Positions 11,035 through 16,770 of a stretch of 49,808 bases of DNA are shown here, piece by piece. Under the pieces are notes generated by a model. The model was given only the letters and a program-made list of their open reading frames with translations. It ran no database searches and was not told the DNA's origin. The translations under genes and the position numbers were made by a program. The DNA is from a bacterium (GTDB taxonomy: Bacteria > UBP13 > UBA5359), in assembly GCA_028685295.1 (NCBI GenBank), contig JAQUEL010000005.1:1-49808 (forward strand), written 5' to 3'. Positions within the stretch are counted from its first letter, which is position 1, and the number at the start of each line of letters is the position of its first letter.

Positions 11035-11619
11035 TTAGATGCTTTCAATATTTCTAGAAGACGGAGATGCTTTTCTACAAATCATACACATCTCTTTTTC
11101 TCCGGCGTGCAACGCGCCGCAACAGATACATTTTACCCAGCCGTGTTCTCGTCTTATCCTTTGGCGACAAAGTTCATGTTCCAAAAATCTGCCGAATGAT
11201 TCCGCCACCAAGCTATCTTTTATAACGGCACTTATTTCCTGTGCCGTTCTGCTATCTTCCTTATCCGGGCCCAAGCGTTTTGGGGATGGTCCCTCACTAT
11301 GCTTATAAACGGCTCCCGCCCTAAAACGTATGTCTGTGATCAAATCAAATCCGATTCTCTCGTTAAGCCGTTTTCTTATTTCCTCTTTCTGCAGGGATAA
11401 TTCCTGCGCCCAGGCAGATCCATTTGTATTTACTGTCATTATACCCGAAAAGACCCTCTGTGGCGAAGTATTTCTGCTTACTCCTTTGCCGACAACTTCC
11501 TCCCAAACAAATAAAATCAATTCCTCTCGCAATCTTCTACTATCCTTAAGATTTCTTAAAATACGAGAGATGATTTTTTCAACGGATATAAATCCGCTTC
11601 TACTCATTTGTTCCCTCAA
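11035..11619 (-). CDS. DUF721/DciA-like protein with C-terminal Cys-rich (zinc-ribbon-like) tail
   Basis: WEEVVGKGVSRNTSPQRVFSGIMTVNTNGSAWAQELSLQKEEIRKRLNERIG is DUF721/DciA-like; C-terminus CICCGALHAGEKEMCMIC; directly follows recF. Confidence 0.8.
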   Translation of the reverse strand: MREQMSRSGFISVEKIISRILRNLKDSRRLREELILFVWEEVVGKGVSRNTSPQRVFSGIMTVNTNGSAWAQELSLQKEEIRKRLNERIGFDLITDIRFRAGAVYKHSEGPSPKRLGPDKEDSRTAQEISAVIKDSLVAESFGRFLEHELCRQRIRREHGWVKCICCGALHAGEKEMCMICRKASPSSRNIESI

Positions 11620-12744: not shown

Positions 12745-13851
12745 TCATCCCATCTTTACCGGCATAACTACATAAGTATACCCTTCTTTTCCTACAGGTC
12801 TTATAATAGCCGGACTTAACGAAGTGCCGGTTTTTATCTCCACTATCTCTTCGTCGAGGTTACCGAGAATGTCCAGAAGGTATCTGGCATTAAAAGCTAT
12901 ATCCATATCTTCGCCGTCATACTGCGCATTTATTTCCTCATAAACATCGCCAACATCCTGTGTTACCGCTGTAACGGCTATTCTTTCTGCTGAAAAGCTC
13001 ATTTTTACTACATGAGAGCCTTCTTTAGCAAGAATATGCGCTCCCTTGACAGCCTTGGTTATTTCGTCTCTGGAAGCAACGGTTCCAGAAGGAAGATTGC
13101 CGGGTATGACCTGTCTATAATTAGGATATTTACCCTCGATAATTCTGGAAACCAGAACTATTTTATTATAAATAAAGGCAACTTGATTGGAGAGAACTCT
13201 TATAACAACCTCTCCTTCCCCTGAAGAAAGAAGACGGCTTAACTCATTAAACGTTCTTTCCGGAATAATTAGAGCAATCTGTTCTTGAGATAGTTCAGGC
13301 AAAGAGATGCTGCGTAATGCTAATCTATGTCCGTCGGTAGCTGCAAGGTTGATATTATTTCCTTCCACTTCCAACAAAACGCCGGTCAGAATGGGTCTTG
13401 TTTCATCCTGCGAGGAAGCAAATATTACCTGTCTGATGGCCTGTTGCAATATAGCTGCGGGAATTTCGCATATATCTCCTTTTTCCAACTCAGGGAAAAG
13501 AGGGTATTCCGAAGCAGGAAGTGTCCGTATACTATATTTTGATTTTCCTTGCTTTACCAGAAGTTCATGTTCTTTTTCCTGACAAAGCTCTATCTCTTCG
13601 CCAGGAAGGTTGGATATTATCTCATAAAGAAGTTTAGCCGGCACGGTAACACTCCCGTTAGATTCCACTTGTGCTTTTACCGCTGTTTTTAACCCTATCT
13701 CCAAATCTGTTCCGGTGAAAAGAAGATGGCCTTCCTCGAACTCTATCAGCGTATTTCCAAGAATAGGTTGTGTGCTTCTATTGGATACGGCTCTCATTAT
13801 GGCTTGTAATGTAGATGCTAAACAGCTCTTTTCTATTTTGGCTTTCAACAC
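12745..13851 (-). CDS. dnaN: DNA polymerase III beta subunit (sliding clamp)
   Basis: Full-length DnaN pattern: LQAIMRAVSNRSTQPILGNTLIE, ATDGHRLALRSI, IIRPVGKEGYTYVVMPVKM; adjacent to dnaA. Confidence 0.97.
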   Translation of the reverse strand: MLKAKIEKSCLASTLQAIMRAVSNRSTQPILGNTLIEFEEGHLLFTGTDLEIGLKTAVKAQVESNGSVTVPAKLLYEIISNLPGEEIELCQEKEHELLVKQGKSKYSIRTLPASEYPLFPELEKGDICEIPAAILQQAIRQVIFASSQDETRPILTGVLLEVEGNNINLAATDGHRLALRSISLPELSQEQIALIIPERTFNELSRLLSSGEGEVVIRVLSNQVAFIYNKIVLVSRIIEGKYPNYRQVIPGNLPSGTVASRDEITKAVKGAHILAKEGSHVVKMSFSAERIAVTAVTQDVGDVYEEINAQYDGEDMDIAFNARYLLDILGNLDEEIVEIKTGTSLSPAIIRPVGKEGYTYVVMPVKMG

Positions 13852-13894
13852 TTTACCTCCCCCTACGTAGTACTAGTTTAACAATGTACTTTTT

Positions 13895-13912
13895 TAGTAG
13901 TAATAGTAGTAG
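13895..13912 (+). promoter_or_regulatory. DnaA-trio array (6 trinucleotides: TAG TAG TAA TAG TAG TAG)
   Basis: Read directly between dnaN and dnaA. AT-rich DNA lies on the dnaN side and DnaA-box-like motifs on the dnaA side, as in the described basal unwinding system of B. subtilis. Confidence 0.75.
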
Positions 13913-13925
13913 TTACCTTGATAAT

Positions 13926-14078
13926 GTTGATCTGCTTTCTTTTCAGGCTTATCATGCTCTCTTTGCCTGTGAGCGCTCTGTTGAAAACATTGTTGATGTA
14001 CGATGCCTTTATGCTTCTTTATCAACAGTTTTTTTCTTATCTTCAATTATCCCTGCGTTGGTCACATGTTTATCCACA
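13926..14078. promoter_or_regulatory. dnaA-dnaN intergenic DnaA-box cluster
   Basis: Perfect box TTATCCACA at 14070-14078; TTATCAACA (8/9) at 14019-14027; degenerate ATCAACA-core sites on the minus strand at about 13991-13999 and 13925-13933. Confidence 0.75.
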
Positions 14079-14103
14079 GTTTGGGATATGAGAATACTCA
14101 CCT

Positions 14104-15468
14104 TTAATTCCTCAATCTTTCAGTTAAGGATTTCAACACTTTATTTAAATTCTCATCGACCAGGCTTAATTTCTTTATTTGATTACAGGCATGTATTACG
14201 GTAGAGTGATCCTTCCCCCCAAATTGATTGCCTATATCCGGCAAAGAAGCTTCCGTCATCTCTCGGCATAAGAACATGGCGATCTGCCTTGGGAAAACGA
14301 TATTTCGGGTTCTTTTTGAGGATTTCATCTCCGCTATCTTTATATTGAAATGTTCAGCTACAGTCTTTTGTATATTCTGTATTGTCATCTCCTTCGGTCT
14401 GTTTTTTGGCAGGATATCTTTAAGCACTTCAGTTGCTCGTTCTATCGTGATCGGGGTATTGGTTAACGATGAGAACGCGGTTATTCTTATAAGCGCACCT
14501 TCCAGTTCCCGGATATTATTGGAGATGTTGTTAGCTATAAATTCAATAACATCATCAGGTATATCCAGTTCATCCTTATTTGCTTTTCTTTGCAAAATAG
14601 CTATTCTCGTTTCGAAATCAGGGGGCTGAATATCTATTGTTAATCCCCATTTAAGCCTTGAACGCAATCTTTCATCTGTAAGATGTAGTTCGCTCGGGGG
14701 ACGATCGCTGGTTATAACAATTTGCTTGTTTGTTTCGTGAAGGGTATTAAACGTGTGGAAGAATTCCTCCTGTGTTCTATCTTTGCCGGCAATGAATTGA
14801 ATATCATCGACCAACCAAATATCCACGTTCCTATATCTATTTCTGAATTCTGTTGTTCGTTCCTCGCGTATAGAGGCGATGACATCATTGGTGAACTTCT
14901 CTGCAGAAACATATATTACATGAGGGCTGTTTTTGTCACTATTGATATAGTTCCCTATGGCATGCATAAGATGTGTTTTTCCCAGACCTACTCCTCCATA
15001 AATAAAAAGAGGGTTATACATAATTGCCGGAGATTTAGCTACGGCCAGCGAGGCCGCCTGGGCAAACCGGTTACTATTACCGACAACAAAAGTATCGAAA
15101 TTATATTTAGGATTAATGGGGATAAATGAAAAAGCATCTCTTTCCAAGCTTTCTGATGATCTTCGTGATCCCTTTTTTCTCGACCTTTCTATTATCGGCG
15201 GCAACTCATCCTCTTCCATAACGACGAATTTTAATTTAACATTGCTGTTACAAATGGCTTTGAGAGTATCTTCGATTGCTCGTGAAGATCTCTTCTCAAT
15301 CCAATCTTTAGCGAAATCGCTGGATACTCCCACAGTGAAAATATTATCCTTAAAGGAGATGGGCGAAATAGTTTTAAGCCAGGTTTCGAATCCCGGCTTG
15401 TTGGTTTTTGTTTTAAGAAGAATAAGGGCTTTATTCCAAATCTCCATATGAGGGGCGTTTTTAGGCAT
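14104..15468 (-). CDS. dnaA: Chromosomal replication initiator protein DnaA
   Basis: YNPLFIYGGVGLGKTHLMHAIGNYI, VDDIQFIAGKDRTQEEFFHTFN, FGGKDHSTVIHACNQI; SD GGAGG upstream of ATG. Confidence 0.99.
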   Translation of the reverse strand: MPKNAPHMEIWNKALILLKTKTNKPGFETWLKTISPISFKDNIFTVGVSSDFAKDWIEKRSSRAIEDTLKAICNSNVKLKFVVMEEDELPPIIERSRKKGSRRSSESLERDAFSFIPINPKYNFDTFVVGNSNRFAQAASLAVAKSPAIMYNPLFIYGGVGLGKTHLMHAIGNYINSDKNSPHVIYVSAEKFTNDVIASIREERTTEFRNRYRNVDIWLVDDIQFIAGKDRTQEEFFHTFNTLHETNKQIVITSDRPPSELHLTDERLRSRLKWGLTIDIQPPDFETRIAILQRKANKDELDIPDDVIEFIANNISNNIRELEGALIRITAFSSLTNTPITIERATEVLKDILPKNRPKEMTIQNIQKTVAEHFNIKIAEMKSSKRTRNIVFPRQIAMFLCREMTEASLPDIGNQFGGKDHSTVIHACNQIKKLSLVDENLNKVLKSLTERLRN

Positions 15469-15510: not shown

Positions 15511-16326
15511 TTATTTTAAAATAAGATCAACTTGCACCAACCCTTCCTCGGTAAGCGATCTCTTACCGTTCTCATCACAACGTAAAAGATCTATCTTCTC
15601 CAGATACGCCATATCTCTATGCGCTGTGCTAAGGCTTATATTGAGTTCCTTAGCTACTATGCTCGGGCCTGCAATGCTCAATTCCGTAATAAGCAGAAGC
15701 ACTCTTTTTTGGCGATCCGTAAGTGCCGGCAGCGGTTTTCGTTTTCTTCTACTCTCTTCTTTTTGTTCCGTACCCGTGTCCCCGGATGAATTAGGTCCCA
15801 AGGACAAAGTTATAACGGTTCCTTGAGATAGATTATCCTCTATAGTTATGATTCCACCTATGTAGCTCAGAGTCTCTTTAACAATAGGCAGTCCTGAACC
15901 AACGCCTTTTATATACTCCTTAACCTGGGCATTTGCTGTGGAAAAACCTGGTAGAAAGGCTTTTTCCTTGTTTTTTATTCCCGGTCCCCGATCGGAAATG
16001 CGGATCGTATTACCATCATCCAGGACAGTTATTATAGCATCCTGGAAATAAGCATGAATAAGGTTTTCCACTAACTCTTTAATTATAATATAAGGAAGTT
16101 TCCCTCCCTTGCTCTGGGATGCCTCATACGTCTTTGCCGCTAAAAGGTGTATAAATTCAAGGTAGTTGCTACTACTAAGTTCTATTACACGTGGCGAGGA
16201 CAAAGGAGAATCATATATCGCCAGGCGAACGCGAGATTCCTTTCCCAGCAAAGGGTGTGCGCTTTTATCAAAGGGATGGGAAAGGTTTCCCTCCTTTACC
16301 GTAACTTTTCGAGGATACTTCCGCAT
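15511..16326 (-). CDS. GHKL-type ATPase domain protein with C-terminal winged-HTH, upstream of dnaA
   Basis: N-box KELVENLIHAY, G1 ISDRGPGI, G2 GVGSGLPIVKETL; C-terminal LTDRQKRVLLLITELSIAGPSIVAKELNISLSTAHRDMAYLEKIDLLRC. No histidine phospho-acceptor domain seen. Confidence 0.8.
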   Translation of the reverse strand: MRKYPRKVTVKEGNLSHPFDKSAHPLLGKESRVRLAIYDSPLSSPRVIELSSSNYLEFIHLLAAKTYEASQSKGGKLPYIIIKELVENLIHAYFQDAIITVLDDGNTIRISDRGPGIKNKEKAFLPGFSTANAQVKEYIKGVGSGLPIVKETLSYIGGIITIEDNLSQGTVITLSLGPNSSGDTGTEQKEESRRKRKPLPALTDRQKRVLLLITELSIAGPSIVAKELNISLSTAHRDMAYLEKIDLLRCDENGKRSLTEEGLVQVDLILK

Positions 16327-16456: not shown

Positions 16457-16616
16457 TGTGGAAAAAAAGAGCGCCGAGAATAGAGGGGAAAGGCGCTGTC
16501 TTAAAATCTTTTCATCCGACAAAGTCCCTTCTTGTGCAGCATAAAGGCCGCTTGTTCTGCTGGTAAGGCAATGTCAATAGGATCTTTTCCACAAAACTAT
16601 CCACAGATGTTGATAA
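16457..16616. promoter_or_regulatory. Second origin DnaA-box cluster (upstream of dnaA)
   Basis: TGTGGAAAA (16457-16465), TTTTCCACA (16585-16593), CTATCCACA (16597-16605), TGTTGATAA (16608-16616); each 8/9 to the DnaA box, in the non-coding strand-switch region. Confidence 0.75.
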
Positions 16617-16770
16617 CTTTGATTGTTTAGTAATGATAACAGACGAAAAGCCCTTTTTCAATTGGCTTCAATAGCAGCACTTAATTCTCGTCTCCTTTAC
16701 AAGCCCTTTAGCGACACGATCTGTTTGTCGTCACTACAGTCTAATATGGTATGGGGACTTCTACAGCTGC

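Follow-up and report, generated by a model that had tools for sequence, protein, structure and literature searches.

The spacer between dnaA and dnaN in this bacterium is predicted, with high confidence, to contain a DnaA-trio basal unwinding system (BUS) as part of a dnaA-dnaN origin. We favour this reading because sequence, strand, order, spacing, conservation, the GC-skew switch and the residues of DnaA all fit it; counted against it are three mismatches in each of the two boxes beside the trios, changes at N196 and E223 of DnaA, and a skew minimum that lies nearer a second box cluster. The site very likely represents a functional and ordinary origin-unwinding element in a little-known lineage, of which only the weak anchor and a fixed distal spacing might be noteworthy to the specialist.

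The window, i.e. the whole stretch of DNA that was analysed, comprises 49,808 nucleotides, with the dnaA-dnaN spacer at 13852-14103. Among the genomes compared, the lineage forms a phylum whose only genus has three species: the window species and two sisters, G001 and G002, whose DnaA proteins are 92 and 86% identical to that of the window. In a DnaA tree the genus falls in an open polytomy, without placement among named phyla. The features of the locus are as follows.

16585-16616, mixed strands: second DnaA-box cluster, TTTTCCACA (+), CTATCCACA (+) and TTATCAACA (-), nearly invariant in the three species and oriC1-like
16457-16465, - strand: DnaA-box TTTTCCACA
14104-15468, - strand: dnaA, the initiator, with conserved trio-capture residues
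14070-14078, + strand: perfect DnaA-box TTATCCACA, invariant in the three species
14019-14027, + strand: DnaA-box TTATCAACA, 8/9
13991-13999, - strand: degenerate box ACATCAACA, 3 mismatches, ATCAAC core common to the three species
13979-13987, - strand: DnaA-box TTTTCAACA, 2 mismatches (TTTTCCACA in G002)
13925-13933, - strand: degenerate DnaA-box AGATCAACA, 3 mismatches, at exactly the box #6 position, 12 bp from the trios
13916-13924, - strand: degenerate DnaA-box, the TTATCAAGG half-box, 3 mismatches, abutting AGATCAACA at the place of B. subtilis box #7
13913-13915, - strand: 3 bp spacer TAA between the trios and the box #7 place
13895-13912, + strand: six DnaA-trios TAGTAGTAATAGTAGTAG, on the strand that DnaA is expected to capture
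13871-13894, strand not applicable: AT-rich DNA TACTAGTTTAACAATGTACTTTTT, adjoining the trios, the predicted first melting region
12745-13851, - strand: dnaN
11035-11619, - strand: DciA-family gene, directly after recF, likely encoding a helicase-loading factor

Base-by-base checking recovered every feature from which the original prediction had been assembled, namely the perfect box, the 8/9 box, two ATCAACA-core boxes on the - strand, the six trios and the AT-rich DNA. Missing from its list were TTTTCAACA, the TTATCAAGG half-box and the cluster at 16585-16616. Its description of the element as 'textbook' holds for order, strand, spacing, conservation, skew and DnaA residues; it does not hold for the published box rule, which the three mismatches fail.

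The trio array

Since dnaA and dnaN run leftwards, TAGTAGTAATAGTAGTAG reads 3'-GAT GAT GAT AAT GAT GAT-5' in the direction from dnaA to dnaN, i.e. five GAT and one AAT. The array thus has the make-up of a BUS, with at least three trios, a middle A, the consensus 3'-GAT-5' and a strand running 3' to 5' away from the boxes, and the claimed agreement in order and strand with B. subtilis, 3'-GAT-5' trios leading from dnaA to dnaN, is borne out. The 2.0 Mb genome has a single copy of the array when up to two mismatches are allowed, and six consecutive [AT]A[GA] triplets are found at just one further place. First-order Markov simulations of the spacer produced such a run on that strand once in 200,000 trials, and a run of six TA[GA] in none of 200,000. 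The 40 bp at 13877-13916 are the ninth least stable among the 49,769 40-mers of the window. The 3 bp separating trios and boxes are TAA here, whereas in most other lineages they are GC-rich (CCC or similar).

All six trios are present in both sister species and the full 18-mer in all three; in the alignment 17 of the 18 trio columns are invariant, the remaining one falling at an alignment gap. The spacer as a whole is much diverged, its long invariant blocks being the perfect box, the trios, TATCAAGGT and, ahead of dnaN, the ribosome-binding site of that gene and AGTACTACGTA. The latter (13864-13874, between the trios and the ribosome-binding site) consists of 11 bases invariant in the three species, and on the - strand it includes CTA GTA CTA, a short run that resembles trios.

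Boxes beside the trios and at a distance

The box nearest the trios had been described as degenerate, and both trio-side boxes indeed have three mismatches. AGATCAACA and TTATCAAGG form a co-oriented tandem, 12 bp and 3 bp from the trios, with weak sequences, and the box #7 place lies one base closer to the trios than usual. At the box #6 position the window has AGATCAACA (3 mismatches), G001 has ATATCAACA (2) and G002 has ATTTGCACA (3). Under the published rule for BUS searches, which asks for a box no more than 16 bp from the trios and no more than two mismatches from TTATCCACA (PMC8287927), the sister G001 accordingly passes, and the window species and G002 fail. This rule is a search threshold, and DnaA also binds low-affinity boxes (PMC8287927).

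The quality of the site was assessed quantitatively with a profile trained on 30 of 94 dnaA-dnaN spacers, all from outside the genus, in which the trios have, at 12 bp, a box with two mismatches or fewer (consensus TTATCCACA-TATCCACAGCCC-CTACTACTACTACTACTA). Over both strands of the 50 kb window the trio site is the best profile match, at 28.2 bits against 0.5 for the next independent site. Splitting the profile assigns 29.1 bits to the trio half and -0.9 to the box half, the latter below every training site (training minimum 3.7, median 27.7), a comparison that places the genus outside a set picked for good boxes and does not give the rarity of such sites. The box #6 part ranks in the top 0.3% of window positions by score, yet below all training sites; because only 0.3% of positions score as well, the box #6 anchor is judged to be weak rather than absent. 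By its sequence, then, the place appears right for a BUS and the boxes poor. Altered DnaA-box specificity as a cause of the weak boxes is not supported: the recognition helix is DHSTV, with S found there in 32 of 111 DnaA proteins, and other parts of the locus have conserved TTATCCACA boxes that are perfect or nearly so.

Within 13916-13924, TATCAAGGT is invariant across the three species, in which the box #7 position reads (T/A)TATCAAGG, while the adjoining box #6 position varies. Along with a match to TTATCCACA at just 6 of 9 positions, this would suit the site of some other, lineage-specific protein that recruits or restrains DnaA, as opposed to a DnaA-box. We regard that as unlikely: the sequence starts TTATC (ATATC in G001), is co-oriented and sits about at the place of B. 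subtilis box #7, there is no known candidate protein, and the invariance spans three species only. Such a site would, moreover, modify the BUS, not replace it.

The perfect box at 14070-14078 is the sole perfect TTATCCACA box of the 49.8 kb window, and in all three species its centre lies 145 bp from that of the box #6 position. Between the perfect box and the trios are 157 bp, which show 38, 64 and 65 differences in the three species pairs and align best without gaps; the flanks vary in length, from 22 to 27 bp before and from 41 to 43 bp after. In a comparison with other lineages, on whether such spacers generally keep their spacing free of indels, there were few pairs of suitable divergence, and the gap penalties admitted compensating gaps. 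A distal box in B. subtilis acts via an apparent phased loop, in either orientation (PMC6669920). Fixed spacing together with weak anchors is what a loop-dependent BUS would look like, but three species are too few to prove it; that the anchor boxes have decayed in this genus, so that the element is loaded from the distal perfect box and depends on a stereospecific loop, is a tentative suggestion and on balance doubtful.

In the BUS reading, DnaA-ATP would bind the boxes of the spacer, most strongly, to judge from sequence, at 14070-14078, and would be set on the weak pair at 13916-13933. Polymerisation along the + strand would then proceed in the direction of dnaN, with neighbouring protomers holding the first two bases of every trio. 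Melting would affect the trios together with the AT-rich stretch at 13871-13894 and let in the helicase, probably with DciA; the distal box may have a part in opening.

The second cluster and the position of the origin

Box clusters lie on both sides of dnaA (13916-14078 and 16457-16616) at the skew switch, as in a bipartite origin, and the origin looks to be of this Bacillota type, with a layout as in B. subtilis and C. difficile. In an origin of that type DnaA would also bridge the two clusters, looping out dnaA. Cumulative GC skew along a 350 kb contig of a sister species declines as far as 297,969, its minimum, and then rises; the trios of that contig are at 295,416, within 3 kb of the minimum, and its second cluster at 298,117. 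The window, with its minimum at 16,737, gives the same picture. A minimum elsewhere had been named as grounds for refuting the prediction, and the skew in fact turns at the dnaA locus. It places the origin there without choosing between the two clusters, since skew over 3 kb tracks gene direction and therefore cannot separate them.

Both minima are nearer the second cluster than the trios, and the cluster at 16585-16616 is nearly invariant, as would be expected were opening to take place upstream, between rpmH and the HATPase gene described below, with the dnaA-dnaN boxes only titrating DnaA or regulating dnaA and dnaN. However, there are no trios at 16585-16616, the dnaA-dnaN spacer has DNA of more extreme instability than any there, and B. 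subtilis and C. difficile open in this spacer despite having two clusters (PMC6669920, PMC7561715). Given also the dependence of the skew on gene direction, upstream opening seems to us very improbable, and the BUS in the dnaA-dnaN spacer is preferred.

Around the upstream cluster, conservation among the three species is far higher over some 100 bp (16555-16660) than in the remainder of that spacer; this stretch includes CTGTTATCATTA and AAACAAT beside the boxes. Between this cluster and dnaA lies a gene (15511-16326, - strand) whose 271 aa product has an HATPase_c domain and, at its C-terminal end, a winged-helix-like part, and is conserved among the three species (90 and 81%). It also adjoins dnaA in the distant outgroup G076, at 52-53%, in the same HATPase-dnaA-dnaN-recF-dciA order, whereas the dnaA neighbourhoods searched at other loci lack it. 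The protein is possibly an origin- or dnaA-linked regulator. The dnaA-dnaN spacer of G076 is GC-rich and contains no clean trio array.

DnaA and comparison with other origins

The DnaA of the window can be aligned over nearly its whole length with the B. subtilis DnaA of BUS structure 8btg, in which E183, N187, R202 and E228 contact trio bases, I190 and I193 are the separating isoleucines and R264 is the arginine finger (PMC10721633). The trio-capture residues and arginine finger expected for a BUS are present: E183, N187, I190, I193, R202, K222, E228 and R264 are all retained (B. subtilis numbering). The substitutions are E at N196 and D at E223, both positions that vary elsewhere.

As in the B. 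subtilis BUS (incC), two abutting co-oriented boxes are followed by a short spacer and six trios on the same strand (PMC6669920, PMC8287927, PMC10721633), with AT-rich DNA and distal boxes in the spacer. Box #6 of B. subtilis is a perfect consensus, in contrast to the three mismatches in both window boxes and their TAA spacer. B. subtilis also has a PF07261 (DnaB_2) protein; none was found in the three genomes of the genus, the B. subtilis control being positive, and DciA is instead present in all three, so that helicase loading after opening probably differs from that in B. subtilis.

The similarity to C. difficile oriC2 is closer still in the array, the 18-mer CTACTACTATTACTACTA there being letter-identical to that of the window and on the same strand (PMC7561715). 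AT-rich DNA again follows the trios, and a second, trio-less cluster lies upstream of dnaA (PMC7561715). The two differ in the anchor boxes, degenerate in the window, and in the HATPase gene that the window has between upstream cluster and dnaA. DnaA-dependent melting of C. difficile oriC2 was demonstrated with P1 nuclease (PMC7561715); opening there was assayed, while that in the window is a prediction.

The identical 18-mer was also found in Clostridium brassicae (L051) and a Bacillota MAG (L045). That the TAG repeat is incidental, as a coding frame, promoter or other cis element of dnaN, is scarcely credible: a 129-codon + strand frame spans the trios and a promoter-like match overlaps them, but stops interrupt the frame in both sister species, promoter-like matches are at chance level (2 against 1.4 expected, both opposite the dnaN strand), no terminator was found, and many unrelated dnaA-dnaN spacers have the same array, strand and box spacing.

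With the BUS predicted here, a phylum represented by a single genus among the genomes compared gains a clear trio array, in support of the view that few parts of bacterial origins are as constant as the trios. The weak anchor boxes provide a natural experiment on how far the unwinding system needs a strong trio-side box. The longest array of the survey is that of another dnaA-dnaN spacer (L007, genome G038), in which 14 consecutive trio-like triplets follow TTATTCACA.
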